Positions 21,552 through 31,957 of a DNA stretch of 64,000 bases are shown here, piece after piece. Numbering within the stretch: position 1 is the stretch's first letter; each line of letters begins with the position of its first letter. The notes below the pieces were generated by a model. That model saw nothing but the letters and a program-made list of their open reading frames with translations. It ran no database searches and was not told the DNA's origin. The DNA is from Laspinema palackyanum D2c (lineage in GTDB: Bacteria; Cyanobacteriota; Cyanobacteriia; Cyanobacteriales; Laspinemataceae), in assembly GCF_025370875.1 (NCBI RefSeq), contig NZ_JAMXFD010000008.1, positions 1 to 64,000 of the forward strand, written 5' to 3'. The position numbers were made by a program, and so were the translations under genes.

Positions 21552-21622
21552 GCGGGCATAGTTTAGTGGTAAAACCATAGCCTTCCAAGCTATTGATGCG
21601 AGTTCGATTCTCGCTGCCCGCT
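21552..21622 (+). tRNA. tRNA-Gly (anticodon TCC)
   Basis: A 71-base cloverleaf. The acceptor stem GCGGGCA pairs with TGCCCGC (21615-21621). The anticodon stem ATAGC/GCTAT closes a loop CTTCCAA with anticodon TCC. The T loop is GTTCGATTC. CCA is not encoded. It forms the left border of the mobile element that starts 12 bases downstream. Confidence 0.95.
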
Positions 21623-21633
21623 TTTTAGATATG

Positions 21634-22001
21634 TTGTCGGTTACCACATGATGGGTCGTCTTGCCCAATTAATGTGACTGAAATTGATAGACTGAATCCC
21701 TCTAGGCATAAAGGTTCAGGCTATTTTTACACGATCACGCGACCCCAAACTGGGGTTGACAAATTAAATGTCGTCTTTTGGAATTTTGACAAATTAGATA
21801 TCGTTTCTTGTCAAAGGTAGTGGCAGGGGATTGTAAGTAGGCTCTTCTGCCCTGTGCGGCAACTGTTTAATCATTAATCAGATTGTCGCCACCGTGGGAG
21901 AAGCACCGACAACCTGATTGATTGCTAGGCGATATTAATTTGTCAACACCCTTTCAACGACATTAATCTGTCAAGACGAGAATTAATGTGGCAACCGATA
22001 A
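21634..22001 (+). repeat. Left 368 bp miniature unit with its own terminal inverted repeats
   Basis: Begins TTGTCGGTTACCACAT and ends ATGTGGCAACCGATAA, so the unit itself has imperfect terminal inverted repeats of about 50 bases. Motifs of the TGACAAATTAnnTGTCG type are at 21662-21680, 21757-21775 and 21787-21805 (direct) and at 21931-21945, 21958-21973 and 21976-21993 (inverted), with a degenerate one at 21641-21660. It looks like the left and right ends of a transposon joined with only about 120 bases between them. Confidence 0.8.
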
Positions 22002-22165
22002 AAAGGGTATGAGACGGTAGCGATCAAATCTCTATCAATGGAAAGGTGTATGCGGCTGACTGGTTCGTTATCGTGAAATGAAGTAGCCATCATCCTCAGC
22101 AATCTGGAACAGGTTGGCTGTTTGGGTAGGCAGCACAATAATTAGATTTAGCATAACTTGATTCC

Positions 22166-23263
22166 ATGCCAAACACGATAGAGATACTTCCTTCTTCACA
22201 CTCGCCGAGTCTTTCCAAAAAGCAATCCCTACTAAATTATGAAGCAGCCGAGCGGCAATTTGTCAATTTGCTAGAAGTCGAGGACTTAGACAAGACGCTG
22301 GCGACAAAACCGTTACTGGTCAGCGATTTTGAAAGCGCGATCGCCGATGCAATTCAATCGGCTTACCAACAGGAACCGGGGGATGAAGCCGCTCACCGCT
22401 TCTTGCAGCGTGTGCTTTACCGCATCAACCGCCTCAACTTGTTTTGGTACGACGATTTAAGCCGCTACAACAACGAACGATCGCACTATTTGCGTTCTGT
22501 GCGCGATCGGATTGAGGAACCTTGGCAGCAGTGGGAAATCGCGCAAATCGACGTTGCAGCGCTGCAAAAATTGCCGGATATCAAACAAGCGCTGCGCGAT
22601 CGCGCCGCCGCTGATGTCGATCCTCCTTTGAACGAGAGCGATCGCTATTTGCGGGAACAGATGACAGCAGACGGATACAGACACCTGCTGGCGATCGCCT
22701 CTTTCGACGGTTTAGTTGAAGCCAGCCGCCTTTCTCGCATCCTCGGCGGTGCTGGCAACGAAATTCAATGCACCCTTACCCGAGTGCTGATCGAAGAATA
22801 CGGCGGCGGTCGCCTCCCCCGCAAGCACTCGACCTTTTTTGCTCAAATGCTGGCTGAATTCGATATGAGTACGGAACCGGAAGCGTACTTCGATTTAGTG
22901 CCTTGGCAAGTGCTCTGCGGCATTAATCACAACTTCCTGCTTACCGAACGCAAGCGCCATTTTCTGCGCTACAACGGCGGACTCACTTATTTTGAGGTGG
23001 CAGGGCCTGTCGCTTACCGCAATTATCTAGCCGCCGCCCAGCGTCTGGGCCTCTCGCAAGCTGCGATGGGGTATTGGGAACTACATATCAAAGAAGATGA
23101 GCGTCACGGTCGCTGGATGTTGGATGAAGTGGCGATCCCGCTGGTTGATAGATACCCGCAGGAGGCGTGGGAGCTGGTGTTGGGGTACGATCAGGAGAAG
23201 TCGATCGGCGATCGGGCTGCGGCTGCTGTAGTGCGATCGATCCAAGCCACAGAACAGAATTAA
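22166..23263 (+). CDS. Heme-oxygenase-like diiron oxidase family protein (iron-containing redox enzyme)
   Basis: A 365-residue protein of the HO-like diiron oxidase/iron-containing redox enzyme family. Candidate metal ligands are in the expected order: the Glu of LIEEYGGG with the His of RKHSTFF (about 207-220), the Glu of LTYFEVAGP, and EDERHGRWMLDE near residue 310, matching the D/ExxxH...D/E helix of the family. Known relatives carry out N-oxygenation, C-C cleavage or decarboxylation of amino or fatty acids with O2; the substrate here cannot be told. The start at 22166 is 164 bases inside the left unit. It faces the methyltransferase gene and shares its terminator. It is cargo of the element. 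Confidence 0.8.
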   Translation: MPNTIEILPSSHSPSLSKKQSLLNYEAAERQFVNLLEVEDLDKTLATKPLLVSDFESAIADAIQSAYQQEPGDEAAHRFLQRVLYRINRLNLFWYDDLSRYNNERSHYLRSVRDRIEEPWQQWEIAQIDVAALQKLPDIKQALRDRAAADVDPPLNESDRYLREQMTADGYRHLLAIASFDGLVEASRLSRILGGAGNEIQCTLTRVLIEEYGGGRLPRKHSTFFAQMLAEFDMSTEPEAYFDLVPWQVLCGINHNFLLTERKRHFLRYNGGLTYFEVAGPVAYRNYLAAAQRLGLSQAAMGYWELHIKEDERHGRWMLDEVAIPLVDRYPQEAWELVLGYDQEKSIGDRAAAAVVRSIQATEQN

Positions 23264-23264
23264 C

Positions 23265-23313
23265 AGCTATATCCTAGGGTGGGTCAGAGACTGACGCACC
23301 CTAGGATATAGCT
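23265..23313. terminator. Shared bidirectional hairpin between the convergent cargo genes
   Basis: A 17-base perfect stem: AGCTATATCCTAGGGTG (23265-23281) pairs with CACCCTAGGATATAGCT (23297-23313) around a 15-base loop that contains GTCAGAGACTGAC, itself palindromic. It overlaps the first base of the methyltransferase stop codon and starts one base after the oxidase stop codon. Confidence 0.85.
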
Positions 23314-24032
23314 TAAAATGCTGTTATTAACTTAATTAGCTCCATCGACAAATCTCTTTGCGCTTTTTGCTGCTTCTTAAACAAAACTCCAGCCAGCAGA
23401 TAGATATTTTCCGAATAAAAAGCCCTTCCCTGTTCTCGGAGAGTGGCGATCGCTCTTTTCACTTTGGGTTCCGAGCTATAATAGCCAAAATTTAAAGGTG
23501 CAATCTCAAAATTCGCAACCGAGTAGCCTCGCTTCAAGGCATAATCGAGCAAACCCACCGGATTAGAATAGCTAGAAACCATCAGCAAAACTTCGTCGCA
23601 GCCGAGAGATAAAAGTTTTTTAGCAATTGTACAACCATCACTCCCCCCGTGCAACAGCGGCTGGTAAATCTTATCATCCACCGCTGGCAAGTAAGGCGGA
23701 TTTGAGATGATACAATCCGCTGACTCGTATAAAGGCGAATCAAAAAAAGAGCAATTGTTGACGCTGTATTGTTCGCTCAGTTCATATTCCTTAATTTGAG
23801 ACTGAGCAATTTTCCACGCTACTTGATTTAGCTCAAATCCCTGTATTGTCCCGTCAAAATCCGTTCTCAGCAAAGACTTAATAACTGGACTTCCCTCTCC
23901 TGAACCAAACTCTACAATAAGTCGAGAATTATCGCTGGCATTTAACACTAAACTTTCCAAGCAGTGCGCGTAAAAATCCGATTCTTCCGGGCAGTGGAAT
24001 ACCTGTTTAAGGGGAGAAGATAAACTGAGCAT
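23313..24032 (-). CDS. PrmC-like SAM-dependent methyltransferase
   Basis: A 239-residue class I methyltransferase. Motif I is VEFGSGEGSP (about residue 41), the acidic end of strand 2 is QGFELN (about 79), and NPPYLP (about 113) is the NPPY signature of N6-adenine, N5-glutamine and related amide/amine methyltransferases. It lacks the N-terminal helical bundle of PrmC and is not next to prfA. Base composition is more AT-rich than the chromosome around it, fitting transferred DNA. It converges on the diiron oxidase gene inside the element, which suggests the two act on one small-molecule or peptide substrate; that link is inference. Confidence 0.75.
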   Translation of the reverse strand: MLSLSSPLKQVFHCPEESDFYAHCLESLVLNASDNSRLIVEFGSGEGSPVIKSLLRTDFDGTIQGFELNQVAWKIAQSQIKEYELSEQYSVNNCSFFDSPLYESADCIISNPPYLPAVDDKIYQPLLHGGSDGCTIAKKLLSLGCDEVLLMVSSYSNPVGLLDYALKRGYSVANFEIAPLNFGYYSSEPKVKRAIATLREQGRAFYSENIYLLAGVLFKKQQKAQRDLSMELIKLITAF

Positions 24033-24322
24033 AAATTCTGGACCAAAGTTGACTATTTTAAAAGTTGACTATTTTAAAAGTATCTAATCATTAATATTGC
24101 CGCCATCTATCCCCAGAGCTATTTTATCAAATTGGGAAATCTCTATTCCTGTTTTACAGGCTGTCATCTAGTAACTCTTACTTCAGACATATAATAAATT
24201 TAACTAGATTAATCCGATGGACAGATTGCAATTAGAGCGATTGCTGTTGAGATAGTACCTAAGCAACTAATTGTAAATTTAAAGAGTGTCAGATATGACC
24301 TTTTCTAATTATTTAGTTCCGC
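24033..24322. other. AT-rich spacer inside the element
   Basis: Upstream of the methyltransferase gene. It contains a direct duplication of AAAGTTGACTATTTTAAAAG (about 24049-24080) and no gene. It probably holds the methyltransferase promoter. Confidence 0.4.
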
Positions 24323-24690
24323 TTATCGGTTGCCACATTATTTGTCGTTTTGACAGATTAATGTCGTTGAAAGGGTGTTGACAAATTAATATCGCCCAGC
24401 AATCAATCAGGTTGTCGGTGCTTCTCCCACGGTGGCGACAATCTGATTAATGATTAAACAGTTGCCGCACAGTGCAGAAGAGCCTACTTACAATCGCCTG
24501 CCACTACCTTTGACAAGAAACGACATCTAATTTGTCAAAATTCCACAAGACGACATTTAATTTGTCAAACCCAGTTTGGGGTCGCGTGATCGTGTAAAAA
24601 TAGCCTGAACCTTTATGCACAGAGGGATTCAGTCTATCAATTTCAGCGACATTAATTTGGCAAGACGACAAGTAATGTGGCAACCGACAA
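24323..24690 (-). repeat. Right 368 bp miniature unit, inverted copy
   Basis: The reverse complement matches the left unit with roughly 20 differences by eye (about 95% identity), most of them in the outermost motif. It holds the same TGACAAATTAATGTCGTC-type motifs, including an exact-looking TGACAGATTAATGTCGTTG at 24351-24369. It ends CAACCGACAA at 24690. Confidence 0.8.
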
Positions 24691-24734
24691 TTATCCATCC
24701 TTAAGCTTATATTTATAAAATGTAATAATACTTT

Positions 24735-24764
24735 TTTACAAAACTTATAAGATAAAATTATAAT
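24735..24764 (+). promoter_or_regulatory. Strong sigma-70 promoter for the small YjzC-like gene
   Basis: TTTACA (24735-24740), an 18-base spacer, then a perfect TATAAT (24759-24764), 32 bases before the start codon. It lies just outside the right end of the mobile element. Confidence 0.7.
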
Positions 24765-24796
24765 ATAGGAGTATTGTTAAACAATAAGGAGGAGAT

Positions 24797-25109: not shown

Positions 25110-26777
25110 CTACTCGATTCCCGGTAGCGTTAACTGAATCGGTTCTGAGTTGTCCGATTCGGGGGGTTCAGGCGGTTGTGCTTTCTTCCTTCCCCGCTTT
25201 CCTGTTCCTTTGGGGGTTTTCTCCGTGGATTTTTTAGCGGTTTTGGCTTGGGGTGGGTTGGCGCGTTCCTCGCGAATGCGATCGAGGAGTACCGAGGCGG
25301 GTTCGTCGTTGGGGTCTTGGGGGACGAGTTCACCTCGAAAGGCTTTGGCGAGAATGGATTGGGTGAGTTGGTCAATATGCGCTTTGGCTTTTTCGTAGCG
25401 TTGTTCGATGCGATCGGCTTTTTGGAATAGTGCTTCCACTCGCCGGACAATTTCTTGTTGTTCGGGGAGGGGAGCAAGCGGAATAACAATATTATTAATT
25501 TTACTAACACTAAGTGTATGCAAACCACTTGTAGAACTAGATAGTTGCATCATCACCACGATTGCTTGAGGGGAATTTAGATAAGTTAGCAAGAAGCTTG
25601 GCTGAACTATAGATAATGGCCTGCTTCTAATAATGTGATTTTGATGAACACAGTTTTCTATATCCCCATTCCAAATAGCGCATCTCCCAATTTCTTTGGA
25701 GCTACCATTGCCTTCGACAATAAGTAAATCGCCTGCTTGTAATTTCCATGTATTTAATTCTCTGGAATTGAATATTTCAAAATACTCAATATTATCAAGA
25801 TTTAGATAGCCTCGGTAAACGTTGGCAACTCGCAGATAAGGATAAGGATTATTTTTAGGTTTTCTTTTGGGTGTTTTTTGAATTCCTCCCTGAGTTTCCG
25901 TAATAGAACCTAGAGAGGTGACACACCAAGAACAGGGTAAATTGATATCCAGTTCAAAATCTACAGAAGAATCTTGATTGAAAGGAGTTTTCGGTTTTCT
26001 CCTTCCCTCTGCTTTAGCCTTGGCACACTCCTCCTCATAACGCTGTTGACTTTCCTCCTGAATCCGCTTTAATAGTTCTGATGCGGGTTCAACATCGGGA
26101 TTTTGTTTGCGCCAATCGGCTGTGAGGCGACCGGAACAAGCCGCAGCTAAGACCGATTGACGAAAGCGAGTCAGGATGGTGGGGATTTTCTCTAATCGCT
26201 GTTTGCAGGCGTCCACTTTTGCCAGCAGCTTTTTCAGCTTGGCAACAATGCGCCGTTGTTCGTTGAGGGGTGGTAAGGGGACTGGCAGAACTCGTAGATA
26301 TTTTAAAGGAATAAATTTTTGTGTACTTCCCTTTAAAAATTCTTCATTTTCTAGAAAGTTTTTTAAAAATTCGCTTTGTAGCCAATGTTTTAGATATAAG
26401 GAATTTATAGCAGATTCATTTTTTTTAAAAAGCGCTACATTTTTAATACTAAATTCTATCTCGGTCTCAACAACTACAGGATTCCCAATTGTTCCAATCA
26501 TTGCCATCAATATATCACCTTTATCTACTCCTGAACGTAGGCTTATTTGTTGATGATCTTCATCGCTAATTTTTTTAGTATTTACAAAATCTATACAATT
26601 ATTTTTTAGATTTTTTGAAGTAACTAATGGAACTCCATTAACAACATATTTTGGGGTATCATGTGTCCCGTCTCTGACGGAAGCACAAATCTCGCTGGTA
26701 ATAGTCCAAACCCACCCCTGAGAAAGTTCAGGTAAATTTTGGAGACCTCGACTTCGATCTGTCCTACTGTCAACCAT
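25110..26777 (-). CDS. hsdS: Type I restriction-modification specificity subunit
   Basis: A 555-residue HsdS that sets the DNA target of the methylase and nuclease. Two target-recognition domains are visible (about 15-165 and 285-425), each followed by a conserved helical spacer beginning LPPLNEQRRIVAKLKKLL (about 175) and APLPEQQEIVRRVEALF (about 430). The first repeat ends in a characteristic SVLAAACSGRLTADWR, the second in SILAKAFRGELVPQDP. The C-tail is Lys/Pro-rich. The start codon lies two bases after the stop of a relic hsdM 3' end (26780-26863), the native operon junction. The whole gene looks intact. Confidence 0.92.
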   Translation of the reverse strand: MVDSRTDRSRGLQNLPELSQGWVWTITSEICASVRDGTHDTPKYVVNGVPLVTSKNLKNNCIDFVNTKKISDEDHQQISLRSGVDKGDILMAMIGTIGNPVVVETEIEFSIKNVALFKKNESAINSLYLKHWLQSEFLKNFLENEEFLKGSTQKFIPLKYLRVLPVPLPPLNEQRRIVAKLKKLLAKVDACKQRLEKIPTILTRFRQSVLAAACSGRLTADWRKQNPDVEPASELLKRIQEESQQRYEEECAKAKAEGRRKPKTPFNQDSSVDFELDINLPCSWCVTSLGSITETQGGIQKTPKRKPKNNPYPYLRVANVYRGYLNLDNIEYFEIFNSRELNTWKLQAGDLLIVEGNGSSKEIGRCAIWNGDIENCVHQNHIIRSRPLSIVQPSFLLTYLNSPQAIVVMMQLSSSTSGLHTLSVSKINNIVIPLAPLPEQQEIVRRVEALFQKADRIEQRYEKAKAHIDQLTQSILAKAFRGELVPQDPNDEPASVLLDRIREERANPPQAKTAKKSTEKTPKGTGKRGRKKAQPPEPPESDNSEPIQLTLPGIE

Positions 26778-26779
26778 TC

Positions 26780-26863
26780 CTAATCCTCCCCATCCAACTC
26801 CATCAATGCCAAAATATCCTTTAAATCATCCACCACCGCTTCTAACTCTGCGATCGCCTCTCC
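26780..26863 (-). pseudogene. Relic duplicate of the hsdM 3' end
   Basis: The reverse strand translates to GEAIAELEAVVDDLKDILAL...ELDGED and a stop, matching the last codons of the intact hsdM (SEAITELEAVVDDLKDILAL...) about 0.9 kb upstream. The stop codon at 26780-26782 is two bases before the hsdS ATG, as in a normal hsdM-hsdS junction. The reading frame is cut off at its 5' side. Confidence 0.85.
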
Positions 26864-27002
26864 AGTCTTGCAGTTCCAGAAAAGCGATTACACCAACGTA
26901 TTAGGTAAACTCTTCTGGAAAACATCCCCATTCCCTTGCATCCCTTTCAGAATACTTGTCAAAAATTTTATCATCTATTCTGTATTCTATAGCATCTCAG
27001 TT

Positions 27003-27404
27003 TTAGGCTTCCCAGTCTTCTAGGCGTAACCCTTCCACTCGTTCAAACTCCCGAACATTATGGGTTACTAAAATCAGATTATTCACTAAAGCGATCGCGG
27101 CAATTTGGAGGTCATAGGGACCGATGGGCATTCCTAAAGCGGCCAATTGAACACGAATCCTCCCAAAAATACTCGCTGCGGCATCATCAAACGGTAAAGA
27201 AATAAACTGATTTAAAAATACCTCCTGTAGCGCCCGTGTGCGAGCAGGGTTTGAGATTCTCATCGCTCCATAAAACAATTCTGCTTTAACTACAGAACAC
27301 ACCGCAATATCCCGGGGAGATAAATGCTCTCAATGTTTCTGTATTCCAGAATTGCGACGATTTAGATACAGAATACAGACATTTGTATCTAGCAAATAAA
27401 TCAA
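27003..27404 (-). pseudogene. VapC-like PIN toxin broken by an in-frame TGA
   Basis: Reading from a TTG at 27404 that overlaps the antitoxin stop (TTGA), the frame gives LIYLLDTNVCILYLNRRNSG, the normal PIN N-terminus with the first catalytic Asp, then TGA at 27330-27332, and continues in the same frame with EHLSPRDIAVCSVVKAELFYGAM, the acidic cluster, and a C-terminal GPYDLQIAAIAL...LVTHNVREFERV. All PIN acidic residues are present across the break. A GTG restart at 27302 would give a 99-residue protein lacking the first Asp. So the toxin is probably dead unless TGA is read through or it is a sequencing error. Confidence 0.75.
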
Positions 27405-27655
27405 TCAAATACCTCCCTAACCTCATATTTCCCTTGATCATATCTGACCAAGGGCTCATCTGCTAAACAGCCTGCGGTCTGTTCAAAAAAACCAGGAGGC
27501 CAGCCTAATTCCTCTGGGCGTTGAGTGACGGGGGGTGGACAAGTGGCTTGATAAATAATAGCTATTTCCAACTCTTGATTCGCTAAATTTTGAGGCACTT
27601 GTAAAACTACTTTTCCTTCCCCATCAGCCCGGATTTTGAGTTTTAGAATTTCCAT
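27401..27655 (-). CDS. VapB-type antitoxin
   Basis: An 84-residue antitoxin of a cyanobacterial type: an N-terminal strand-rich DNA-binding half (LKIRADGEGKVVLQVPQNLANQ) and a toxin-binding tail with the characteristic GWPPGFFEQTAGCLADEPLVR. It overlaps the start of the PIN toxin frame by translational coupling (TTGA). It should repress its own operon and neutralise the toxin; since the toxin frame is interrupted, its present use is doubtful. The pair sits between hsdM and hsdS. Confidence 0.8.
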   Translation of the reverse strand: MEILKLKIRADGEGKVVLQVPQNLANQELEIAIIYQATCPPPVTQRPEELGWPPGFFEQTAGCLADEPLVRYDQGKYEVREVFD

Positions 27656-27746
27656 TTTATATTTTGCAGGTTCAATTTATAAAGGTTGAAAAAATTATAG
27701 CTTAATTTTATCTAACGGTGTGGAGTCCGCCATCATCATTGAGGTT

Positions 27747-29159
27747 TTATAAATAGTCATTGCCATCCAACTCCATCAAAGCCAAAATATCCTTCAAATC
27801 ATCCACTACTGCTTCTAACTCAGTAATAGCTTCACTCGCCAAGTCTTGGGGTTCCGGCAAATTATCCGCATCCTCTAAACTCTCATCCCTGAGCCAAGTC
27901 AAATCCAGTTTGTAATCCCGTTCCTGAACTTCCGCTAGGGAAAACCGTCGAAACCGCCCTTCGAGTCCCAAATCTTCCCGCTTGCTATTTCCATTCGGGT
28001 CATCCCCATAACAGCGCTCGAATTCCGCAAAATGCTGGGATGTCAAAGGGCGCTCTTTCTTCGTTACCCCCGGCACATTGGAACGGGCATCAAAAATCCA
28101 CACCGCCTCAGTGGGTAAACCTTTCTGCAAAAACACCACATTCGCTTTCACCCCTTGAGAATAAGGCGTAAAGGTTCCCCGAGGCAAGCGCAATACAGTA
28201 TGCACGTTGCAATCCTGCATCACAATTTTAAACACTTCTCCCGCCTTATCCTCAAACAAGCAATTATCCGGCAACACCATCGCCGCGCGTCCCCCGGGTT
28301 TGAGCGTCGTCAAAACGTGCTGGATAAAATTTAACTGTTTGTTACTCGTCTCAATGGTAAAGTCATCCCGTCCCGGCGCTTGATTCGCCCCTTTTGTGCC
28401 AAAGGGCGGATTGGTCAAAATGCAATCATAACGTTCTGCGCGATCGGCTTCGTAAATCGCATCCCCGAGATAAATCGTCGGTTCCAACCCCTGCAAAAAT
28501 AGATTCATCAACGCCAAACGCCGGGGACGGGGCACCAAATCTTGTCCGTAATAGGTTTGGGTTTTGATTCGCTTAATGTCCTTGCGGTCAAAAACGCCCC
28601 CCGTCTGTTCCATCAACCACTGATACGCCACCACCAAAAAACCCCCAGTCCCACAGGCAGGGTCGCAAATCTTGAAATGGGGACTCACCCGAGGGTCTGG
28701 TTTCATTAACCGGACGATGGATTGAATCAGTACCCGAGGGGTAAAATACTGTCCCGCGCCTTTTTTCCCTTCGCTTGCCGCCTTTTCCAGCAATCCCTCA
28801 AACGCCTGCGCCTTCACGTCCACATTTAGGGAGGTCCACTCTTCCTCATCAATCATGGCAATCAGGCGTTTGAGGTTCACTGGATTGTTAAACCTCGGCA
28901 TTGCCTGGGTGAAAATATCCCCCAGTAATCCCCGTTCCTCCCGCAATTGCCGCAGGATATCCAAGTAATAGTCAGCTAAATCCGTCCCGGAATAGGATTT
29001 AAGATTGTCCCACTCGCACCCCTGGGGAATCTTAATCCCCTTCTCATCCGCCATTTTCAGAAACAGCAGATAGGTCAACTGTTCGATATAGTCGCCATAG
29101 TCAATCCCATCATGGCGGAGGGTATTGCAAAATCCCCAGAGTTTATTTACGACATCCAT
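27747..29159 (-). CDS. hsdM: Type I restriction-modification N6-adenine methyltransferase
   Basis: About 470 residues from the ATG at 29159 (MDVVNKLWGFCNTLRHDG), the family-typical start; an upstream in-frame start would add 24 hydrophobic residues. The N-terminal helical domain (about 1-130) is followed by the methyltransferase core with DPACGTGGFLVVAYQW (SAM binding) and NPPFGTKG (catalytic NPPF). The C-terminus ends ELDGNDYL. It methylates adenine in the site chosen by HsdS, protecting host DNA. The gene starts 40 bases after hsdR. Its last codons are duplicated next to hsdS. Confidence 0.93.
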   Translation of the reverse strand: MDVVNKLWGFCNTLRHDGIDYGDYIEQLTYLLFLKMADEKGIKIPQGCEWDNLKSYSGTDLADYYLDILRQLREERGLLGDIFTQAMPRFNNPVNLKRLIAMIDEEEWTSLNVDVKAQAFEGLLEKAASEGKKGAGQYFTPRVLIQSIVRLMKPDPRVSPHFKICDPACGTGGFLVVAYQWLMEQTGGVFDRKDIKRIKTQTYYGQDLVPRPRRLALMNLFLQGLEPTIYLGDAIYEADRAERYDCILTNPPFGTKGANQAPGRDDFTIETSNKQLNFIQHVLTTLKPGGRAAMVLPDNCLFEDKAGEVFKIVMQDCNVHTVLRLPRGTFTPYSQGVKANVVFLQKGLPTEAVWIFDARSNVPGVTKKERPLTSQHFAEFERCYGDDPNGNSKREDLGLEGRFRRFSLAEVQERDYKLDLTWLRDESLEDADNLPEPQDLASEAITELEAVVDDLKDILALMELDGNDYL

Positions 29160-29199
29160 TCTTAATATCCATTGAGCTGACAACCCTGGAAAAGGGATT

Positions 29200-31872
29200 T
29201 TAAAGGGCAATTTCCCGATTAATTTGGGCAATCAATGCCTCTAACTGTCCCTGAAACACTTTTTGCGCTTTTCCCAATCCCCCATAACGCTCGAAAATCG
29301 GGGCATATTCAAAATCATCTATCTCAACTGTCAAGTTTTGCACCAGATATTCGCCGATGTAACCCAACCACTGCAACTGTTCCGGATTAAACTCCTTGCC
29401 TGCCATCACCCGCGCTAACGCCCGGTTTACCCGTTCCTGTGCGGTGTAAATCGGTTCATCTGGGCGCGTGGCGTGTTTCACCATTGAGATGATGTCAGCC
29501 AAGGCTTTATTATGCACCAATTGGTGTGCGCGTTGAAGTTGCGGTTCAGAAAACTGATTTTTCTGCAAAACCTGCCGCAGTTCCTCCAGGACCTGGGAAT
29601 TCCATTCCTGGGGACGTTCCTGTAAAATCCGCATCGCCTCAATCTGGGAACTATTCTCCCGCACAAACCGAGAAAAGCTATCCAGGTAATCTTCGGGTTT
29701 TTTGCCTTGAATCACGACTTCAGACGAGACTTGATCCTCACCCTCATACCCCACTAAAAAGGTCTGTTTGGCTTTGGGGTAATTCTCCAAAACATCCTGA
29801 AACCCAGGATTTTGCAGCAAATTCAGGGTATTGGCGAAGTCGGTTTCCATCCGTTCCGGCAGACTGCGGGCAAATCCCCCGATATCCCCATCCGGGATAT
29901 AGTTAGCAAACTGCTGTCTCGCCTCTTCACTCATGTTGCGATGGATGCGATGCAGTCGTTTCGTAAATGCTTTGAGAGAAGACTCGCGATCGCGATTCTG
30001 CACGATATTTTCCATCACCTGTTTCACCGAGACACTCTGCTGACGCAGGGGTTCGATTTTAAAATTGCTAACCTCGGCAAAATACTCGATTAACGACCCG
30101 CCAAAACAATCGAAAATTGTGAAATGAGTTTTGTTGATATCCCCACAGAGGCGCGTCCCCCGTCCCAACATTTGCTCCCAGAGAATTCGCGATTTCACCG
30201 GGCGCATAAAGACAATAAATTCTAAACTCGGAATATCTACCCCGGTACTGAGCATATCCACAGTAACCGCAATTTTAGGCTGAGGACGGTTGCGAAACTC
30301 CCGAATACATTGCAAAGGTCGATCCACTTTTCCGGTGATTTTCTGTACGAATTCATCCCCTCTGGCAAAGACTTCCTTGCAAATTCTCACCACTTGGTCT
30401 GCATGGGAAATATGGGCTAAATCATTCACCGCAAATATCAAAATTCGGGGAAACCGCCCGGTTTCTTGTTCATGGCGAGACGCATATTTAGCAATCTCTT
30501 CAATAATCTTGCGATTGCTGTCAGGAATAGTAATTTTTCGCTCAATGTCAGTGGTAGAAAATTCCCGCTCGTCTTCTAATTCATCGTAAACCTCTTCACC
30601 CGTTTCCCGGTCAATTCTGCCCACCATTTCCCCTTCACGGACAAACGTGCCATTTAAGCGGATATCGGAATGAATATCGATGCGCTCATAATCCACTAAC
30701 CACCCATCTTGGATTGCCTGTTGAGTGGTGTAGCGATACACCACTTCGCGAAATAGAGAGACGGTATGCGCTGCCGGGGTAGCAGTCAAGCCAATTTTAA
30801 TCGCATCAAAATAGTCAATGGTTTTGCGCCAAGAACCCACCTCGCTAGAGGTATATCCCCGATGGCACTCATCGGCAATAATTAAATCAAAGGCATGAAT
30901 GGGGATATCTAGTTGTTCGGCATCGCTTTCCTCTTCAACATCCCCCGTTTCCCCTTCGGCACCTGTCCCTTTCCCAAACAGATTGATCGTCATCCGTTGA
31001 ATGGTGGAGACATAGACAAAGGTATGGGTTTCGTTGGGATTCGTTAAGTAAGCACTGGGTAATACTTCCGGGTTAAAGGATTCTTCTTCCCCAAAATCTT
31101 CTCGCCGAAATTGCTGGCTGTAAACTTCGTATTCTTTATTAAATTTGTTGCCGCGTGGGGTATCAAATGAGGCAAATTCTCGGACGGCTTGCGCTGCCAA
31201 AGCACGGCGATCGACTAAAAATAAAATCCGCCGAGCTTTTTTGGATGCCAGCAAACGGTAAACTTGAGACACGGTGCAGAAGGTTTTCCCGGTTCCGGTT
31301 GCCATCGCAATCAATAAATGTCGCAACCCTCGGGATATCGCCTGTTCCGTTGCTGCGATCGCCTTTTCCTGATAGGGACGCAATCGGGTATTTTCGGCGA
31401 TCGCATTCTCCAGAAACCAGCGATCGCAGCTTTCCTCATCCCGCTTGAACAACTCAGTTAAGGCATCGGCAGAATGAAAGGTGGTAATCTGACGAGACAG
31501 ATTATTTTCCTGGCGCACATCGAGAAAATAAATCAATTCTCCATTACTGGAAAATAAAAACGGCACTCGATACCCACGCCAGTTCCCCACCCCCTGAAAC
31601 GTTGTTTTAGAATACCGCTTTGCTTGCGTTAACACCCCTTCAGCACCCAAGGATACTCGCTTCGCCTCAATGAACCCCAGCAACTGACCCTGGACGAATA
31701 AAGCATAATCCGCAGGACCACTGGCAGTCGGATATTCCTCAACGGCATGGCATTTCAGTTGGCTGGTATCCAATCTGTCACTATAGGGGATGATTTGCCA
31801 AGGGGGATTGAGTGCCTGGAGCTTTTTGTTAATGCGATCGCGTCTGGTAATGGATTCCGGTTCTTTGCTCAT
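29200..31872 (-). CDS. hsdR: Type I restriction endonuclease/translocase subunit
   Basis: About 890 residues. The N-terminal PD-(D/E)xK nuclease region is visible as ADYALFVQGQLLGFIEAKR (about 55-75 from the ATG at 31872). The SF2 helicase motor follows: Walker A MATGTGKTF (about 190), DECHRGYT (motif II), GLTATPAAHT (motif III), and GRGTRLC (motif VI). The C-terminal helical region should bind HsdM. It cuts unmethylated foreign DNA after ATP-driven translocation. It is first in the operon hsdR-hsdM-(vapBC)-hsdS. No clear ribosome-binding site precedes the start. Confidence 0.92.
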   Translation of the reverse strand: MSKEPESITRRDRINKKLQALNPPWQIIPYSDRLDTSQLKCHAVEEYPTASGPADYALFVQGQLLGFIEAKRVSLGAEGVLTQAKRYSKTTFQGVGNWRGYRVPFLFSSNGELIYFLDVRQENNLSRQITTFHSADALTELFKRDEESCDRWFLENAIAENTRLRPYQEKAIAATEQAISRGLRHLLIAMATGTGKTFCTVSQVYRLLASKKARRILFLVDRRALAAQAVREFASFDTPRGNKFNKEYEVYSQQFRREDFGEEESFNPEVLPSAYLTNPNETHTFVYVSTIQRMTINLFGKGTGAEGETGDVEEESDAEQLDIPIHAFDLIIADECHRGYTSSEVGSWRKTIDYFDAIKIGLTATPAAHTVSLFREVVYRYTTQQAIQDGWLVDYERIDIHSDIRLNGTFVREGEMVGRIDRETGEEVYDELEDEREFSTTDIERKITIPDSNRKIIEEIAKYASRHEQETGRFPRILIFAVNDLAHISHADQVVRICKEVFARGDEFVQKITGKVDRPLQCIREFRNRPQPKIAVTVDMLSTGVDIPSLEFIVFMRPVKSRILWEQMLGRGTRLCGDINKTHFTIFDCFGGSLIEYFAEVSNFKIEPLRQQSVSVKQVMENIVQNRDRESSLKAFTKRLHRIHRNMSEEARQQFANYIPDGDIGGFARSLPERMETDFANTLNLLQNPGFQDVLENYPKAKQTFLVGYEGEDQVSSEVVIQGKKPEDYLDSFSRFVRENSSQIEAMRILQERPQEWNSQVLEELRQVLQKNQFSEPQLQRAHQLVHNKALADIISMVKHATRPDEPIYTAQERVNRALARVMAGKEFNPEQLQWLGYIGEYLVQNLTVEIDDFEYAPIFERYGGLGKAQKVFQGQLEALIAQINREIAL

Positions 31873-31957
31873 GATGGTGTCGCTACAGAAGTGCAAGTCT
31901 CAGAGGTAGGATGCCACCCCAAATCGACTCGTTACAATCTCCCTCCCAGCTTAACCC

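Follow-up and report, generated by a model that had tools for sequence, protein, structure and literature searches.

Type V-K CRISPR-associated transposons (CASTs) are without TnsA, and their transposition is replicative. In the available text of PMC9938897, V-K attachment uses a GTN PAM and a 17-nt anchor spacer with mostly tRNA targets, and in natural elements the PAM lies 46-82 nt from the element end, with one exception. ShCAST yields mainly cointegrates, i.e. it transposes replicatively (PMC8188705, available part), and how native hosts handle these cointegrates is given as unknown in the available part of the review PMC11406308. IS-flanked composites occur inside Tn7-like elements, according to the accessible text of PMC8649781. 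V-K CASTs are described as gene-bearing, and a gene-less V-K mini-element family such as the one proposed here would depart from that picture.

The window (the whole stretch of DNA that was analysed, 64,000 nt of Laspinema palackyanum D2c, contig NZ_JAMXFD010000008.1) carries two such mini-elements, inverted round a gene pair and placed behind a tRNA-Gly gene. Its source genome, G000, is a draft of 7.03 Mb in 81 contigs. The features of the locus are the following:

21552-21622, + strand: tRNA-Gly (tcc), the attachment gene (ARAGORN); a CAST-like end comes next in G007 and G008 too.
21569-21588, + strand: GTA PAM (21569-21571) and 17-nt protospacer AAACCATAGCCTTCCAA, a 16/17 match to a spacer of G008:C47.
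21634-22001, + strand: unit 1, miniature V-K CAST element, tnsB-side end outward beside the tRNA, CRISPR-side end inward.
22001-22005, no strand: left inner junction AAAAG; G002/G007 read GTTG-AAAAG-GGTATGAG / GTTG-AAAAG-GGTAGAG, and in the window unit 1 stands before AAAAG.
22166-23263, + strand: cargo gene 1, haem-oxygenase-like iron-containing redox enzyme (PF14518), 365 aa.
23313-24032, - strand: cargo gene 2, small methyltransferase (PF05175), 239 aa; PrmC/HemK-like matches fall below cut-off.
24319-24323, no strand: right inner junction CCGCT; 4/4 relatives read TTCCGCT-TCTG, and in the window unit 2 stands after CCGCT.
24323-24690, - strand: unit 2, miniature V-K CAST element, inverted relative to unit 1, tnsB-side end outward.
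24690-24765, no strand: right outer junction, about 700 nt missing relative to G005 and G006.

A first-pass annotation of this DNA had described two inverted 368-base units, about 95% alike, round a cargo of 2.3 kb. Recomputing the arms and their spacing gave the same picture: the arms at 21634-22001 and 24323-24690 are 368 nt each and 95% complementary, with 2321 nt between them, and 19 of the 368 sites distinguish one unit from the other. Comparison with relatives set the true ends at TG..TA/CA, so that the copies proper span 21635-22000 and 24324-24689. Each unit is a miniature element with both ends joined, as had been claimed, and the pair is oriented with both tnsB-side ends outward and both CRISPR-side ends inward. 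The inverted ends attributed to each unit were recovered in full for unit 2, whose terminal inverted repeat is 50 nt long (88%); in unit 1 this held for the outermost 16 nt, inverted with two mismatches, the repeat being weaker or decayed further in. When the tnsB-side end was scored against the unit's own other end, values of 22.5 (unit 1) and 36.5 (unit 2) were obtained.

Candidate TnsB sites, recognised by their likeness to V-K TnsB motifs, are arrayed at both ends of the units. The annotation had counted about seven in each; by sequence, TnsB-like 19-20-mers (at most 5 mismatches) number seven in unit 2 and five in unit 1, for a chance expectation of 0.02 on average (200 mononucleotide shuffles), and a 17-mer version of the site has five matches window-wide, all within the units, with 0.20 expected. 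A search at no more than 1 mismatch found no V-K CRISPR repeat inside the units. Nor does the unit-cargo-unit block contain an ORF for Cas12k, TnsB, TnsC or TniQ: its two long ORFs encode the Haem_oxygenas_2 protein and the small methyltransferase, in agreement with the claim that no transposition gene lies inside. A hairpin is found at 21876-21919 and in the matching part of unit 2, with a 22-nt core that is very constant across mini copies and was not found in either CAST locus read (L031, L072). A search of all retrieved loci with up to 4 edits placed this core in the mini copies; L063 and L205, two loci that look unrelated, also matched, at 4 edits.

The units are not unique to the tRNA-Gly locus and are members of a Laspinema mini-element family. 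Besides the pair of full copies, a search of G000 gave a 71% copy on contig C34 and a fragment on C20, and full or partial unit matches occur in 7/14 family genomes. In an eight-row alignment the mini copies have their interior in common, which favours the spread of a single family over ends that fused again and again. The units have the attributes of MITEs, being short, non-coding, bounded by terminal inverted repeats and present in several dispersed copies. Within the alignment, each of the two window units has the other as its nearest relative, and the two have private changes in common. Derived changes number 13 in unit 1 and 3 in unit 2, with 3 undecided, and unit 2 is nearer to the other family copies; unit 1 is either older, or at a site under less constraint.

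The annotation had read the ends as those of type V-K CASTs, a reading borne out by relatives of the same genus, where similar ends flank TnsB-TnsC-TniQ genes (G006 and G002). The G006 element, on contig C185, reads in order tnsB-side end, TnsB, TnsC, TniQ, cargo, V-K CRISPR remnant and CRISPR-side end; its ends match unit 2 positions 2-184 at 79% and unit 1 positions 275-361 at 82%. For its TnsB, the match to the TnsB of a solved V-K complex covers residues 21-582 of 582 (E 8e-254), its TniQ matches TniQ of the same solved entries (E 1e-64), and its CRISPR repeats are common to the Cas12k-bearing CAST of G007. The solved protein we take to be that of ShCAST, the PDB rows naming it TnsB only and one TniQ row ShTniQ. 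The TnsBs of the G006 and G007 elements are only 60% alike.

The annotation had called for a TnsB transposon with matching ends in the same or related genomes, and relatives supplied it: among the 14 family genomes, a TnsB protein query matched in G002, G006 and G007, and Cas12k exceeded its cut-off (NF038191) in G007. Two Cas12k matches of G009 lie below cut-off (E about 5e-4) and were counted as none. The protein served as transposase query in place of PF09299, which had no match even in controls. The rest of the draft genome G000, where the annotation had also proposed to look, yielded neither Cas12k (NF038191) nor TnsB (protein query).

In the order as a whole, unit-end matches were found in 76 of 388 genomes, eight of the 76 being from the window's family. 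Cas12k was listed above its cut-off for 49/76 genomes with an end match vs 50/312 others (Fisher p 3.6e-16, kinship ignored; 99 Cas12k genomes among the matches listed, 100 found in all). The count took in 89 end places, after removal of duplicates (overlapping or on the opposite strand) and of all rows from the family to which the window belongs; 35 of the 89 lie on the same contig as Cas12k and 26 within 30 kb of it, at 0.6-21 kb. That the ends of the units are homologous to V-K element ends, and the units probably non-autonomous V-K CAST derivatives, is well supported by these sequence comparisons; we regard a V-K-derived MITE family as highly probable.

Several further loci are worth recording. 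The G006 element occupies 4567-14039 of L031, with a V-K CRISPR remnant, no Cas12k found there, and an MBL-fold protein plus a weakly MAD2-like DNA methylase as cargo. Compared by eye, this element and the G007 CAST have almost the same CRISPR tail and the same outer flank, and in both CASTs a CRISPR spacer matches the outer flank. In G002:C1 (L032, 7000-14000) several unit ends in both directions surround a TnsB-TnsC-TniQ set, forming an island; the tnsB-side end of this set is without the terminal site. A second recurrent CAST neighbourhood, with end remnants or mini units beside one common flank, is seen in three genomes (G000:C20:17093-17147, G004:C438:3061-3484 and G002:C1:3277525-3278588). 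In G009 a mini unit is split by a 364-aa ORF (L033, 5739-7203) which, named by eye, presumably belongs with IS630-type transposases.

The true start of unit 1 lies 12 nt from the end of tRNA-Gly. The anchoring to a tRNA gene proposed by the annotation agrees with what is seen in relatives: the tRNA-Gly flank was located in 7/8 genus genomes (the G004 contig stops short of it), and CAST-like ends stand behind it in G000, G007 and G008. At the other four sites no CAST-like end was seen, which gives tRNA-Gly sites without the unit, of the kind that the annotation had wished to see in related genomes. The G008:C47 spacer, which sits behind a truncated V-K-like repeat beside a CRISPR-side end, fits tRNA-Gly at 16/17 nt, adjoining the GTA PAM. 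From PAM to element the distance is 63 nt in the window, 59 in G007 and 56 in G008. The locus thus has a tRNA target, a GTN PAM whose distance falls within the 46-82 nt of natural elements and, in G008, a matching anchor spacer. When the tRNA-Gly guide pattern was searched in 14 genomes at no more than 3 mismatches, it was exact in G008, had one 3-mismatch place in G001 and was found in 0/12 others, G000 included. G008 showed neither Cas12k nor TnsB, so its tRNA-Gly structure is a remnant; and as the searches of G000 for Cas12k, TnsB and a tRNA-Gly guide were all negative, the machinery was either supplied from outside or has been lost.

The end nearest the tRNA is the CRISPR-side one in G008 and the tnsB-side one in the window. 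At the G007 site the best scores were 27 (tnsB-side) and 29.5 (CRISPR-side). Given the G008 arrangement, one would not expect a single unit to turn its tnsB-side end to the tRNA, whereas a composite that worked through its outer ends could present no other; this argument is suggestive only.

The two cargo genes are convergent. A 35-nt inverted repeat lies between them (23253-23325), in relatives too, and is terminator-like by position. The stretch corresponding to 22001-24324 is contiguous and unit-free in G002, G003, G007 and G008, and beside tRNA-Gly in none of these four. In all six pairwise comparisons of their cargo loci, the alignment stops about half a kilobase or less beyond the cargo, so the neighbourhoods differ between relatives. 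The pair is widespread: of 150 loci 80 were kept, the methyltransferase being in the same locus in 76 of them and a unit match in 0. As the cargo has a different place in each relative, it also moves by other means, and no donor site can be named. The G002-type cargo site exists in G000 (C4) without the cargo; G002 was considered as the ancestral site and dropped, the context differing between relatives.

At the left inner junction, the flanks of G008 and G003 already diverge at 22004-22006, which places the cargo's left edge within 6 nt of unit 1; the junction thus lies near an edge that the cargo has elsewhere, and the argument from exactness is weaker on this side. The outer junctions are less regular. 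For a 5-nt target duplication, 2/5 nt match in the composite and 1/5 in each of the units. Among five other mini copies compared, one (G007:C24) has a perfect 5-nt duplication and four have 0 to 2 of 5 nt duplicated; at the G006 TnsB element 4 of 5 nt agree. As a check for unit copies placed at rearrangement breakpoints, five joined flank pairs from other unit copies were compared with 14 genomes; among the matches listed, 0/5 gave a contiguous empty site, with repeats and islands complicating the reading. The roughly 700 nt lost on the right are those between tRNA-Gly and a small ORF in G005/G006. Downstream of the insertion, at 25110-31896, are genes that, named by eye, we take to be type I restriction-modification-like.

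We propose the following history. The unit would be a MITE made from two joined V-K CAST ends, which TnsB working in trans would have spread through Laspinema. A mobile cyanobacterial gene pair may then have become enclosed between two inverted sister copies, and the whole block most likely landed behind tRNA-Gly via its two outward tnsB-side ends, another CAST having provided TnsB/TnsC/TniQ, Cas12k and the tRNA-Gly guide. Replicative V-K transposition followed by a local rearrangement, the loss of ~700 nt, could have erased the duplication. Against a composite one can set the lack of a target duplication, a unit 1 whose outer end has degenerated, and the missing right flank. Since V-K transposition gives cointegrates and their handling by the host is unexplained, flank loss beside such an element would be unsurprising, though this is not proof. 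The annotation's composite carrying enzymes as cargo therefore stands as to structure and inner junctions; movement as one is no more than possible, given the absent outer duplication and the missing flank. That TnsB binds the units, that a guide directed their arrival, that the block moved as one, and in which order all this happened, we infer from sequence. Taken whole (MITE units, a sister pair round the cargo, guide-directed landing at tRNA-Gly), the account seems to us slightly more probable than not, and composite transposition is about evenly balanced. The fuller statement, that a V-K transposase in trans may carry a chromosomal gene pair via two mini-CAST tnsB-side ends to a tRNA site named by a guide, G000 having lost or never had the machinery, is put forward tentatively.

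The most serious alternative is accretion: unit 1 would have inserted alone at tRNA-Gly, cargo and unit 2 arriving later through recombination between unit copies or further insertions, and the block would never have been one transposon. This sits well with the lack of a target duplication, the excess of derived changes in unit 1, the replaced flank of about 700 nt, the clustering of unit ends in the G002 island and the movement of the cargo without units; it sits badly with units 1 and 2 being mutually closest with private changes in common, with a cargo that stops at both inner ends, and with the failure to find in G000 a third full copy for recombination. We consider it possible and rather doubtful. 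Less probable still is an adjacent inversion, in which one intramolecular replicative transposition leaves two inverted copies round an inverted segment. Inverted sister copies are what such an event is expected to give, and the replicative, mainly cointegrate-forming behaviour of ShCAST (PMC8188705, available part) would allow it. The shared flanking 5-mers that it predicts are nevertheless absent: compared by hand, AAAAG calls for CTTTT and ATTAT is found, CCGCT for AGCGG and TATGT is found, and the cargo adjoins tRNA-Gly in none of the four relatives. This origin was disfavoured as improbable. A misassembly in which the repeated units wrongly link the cargo to tRNA-Gly and to the right flank might be suspected in a draft of 81 contigs; with units that differ at 19/368 sites and lie within a contig of 251,906 nt, it is very improbable. 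A MITE family unrelated to CASTs, to which only the failure to find the 22-nt core in L031 and L072 lends colour, is hardly conceivable and was rejected, because either end of the unit gave matches to TnsB-bearing elements and to ends linked with Cas12k, the same ends standing at TnsB/TniQ/CRISPR elements of the genus.

If the proposed composite history is true, RNA-guided transposition can move host genes outside any CAST. The locus bears, too, on the effects of replicative V-K transposition in native genomes and on the end pairs that the V-K transposase accepts.

In a literature search conducted mostly without subscription literature, none of the titles and abstract openings listed dealt with MITEs or composites derived from V-K CASTs, and none are described in the available parts of PMC11406308, PMC9938897 and PMC8649781. 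MITE-flanked class 1 integrons and MITE-297 regions of Acinetobacter resemble the present block in having MITE pairs round genes, composite-like, and differ in their ends and in belonging to plasmids and strains of that genus, with no tie to a tRNA site or CRISPR noted in the available text (PMC6382973). With V-K CASTs, as far as the accessible parts of PMC11406308, PMC9938897 and PMC9527255 describe them, the locus has in common its end sequence with arrayed TnsB-like sites, a tRNA gene pointing at the element, a GTN PAM about 60 nt from the end, TnsB, TnsC and a short TniQ with similar ends in relatives, and a 5-nt duplication at one mini copy. Unlike V-K CASTs, it has no tnsB, tnsC, tniQ, cas12k or CRISPR repeat found inside, and consists, twice over, of just the two ends with a short interior between them. 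To our knowledge, RNA-guided target choice is no part of Tn3 transposition. The TIMEs and TIME-COMPs derived from Tn3 (PMC4133298, PMC13367494, available parts) are alike in architecture, two MITE copies bounding a cargo in composite-like fashion, and differ in carrying Tn3-family ends and antibiotic resistance genes as cargo.
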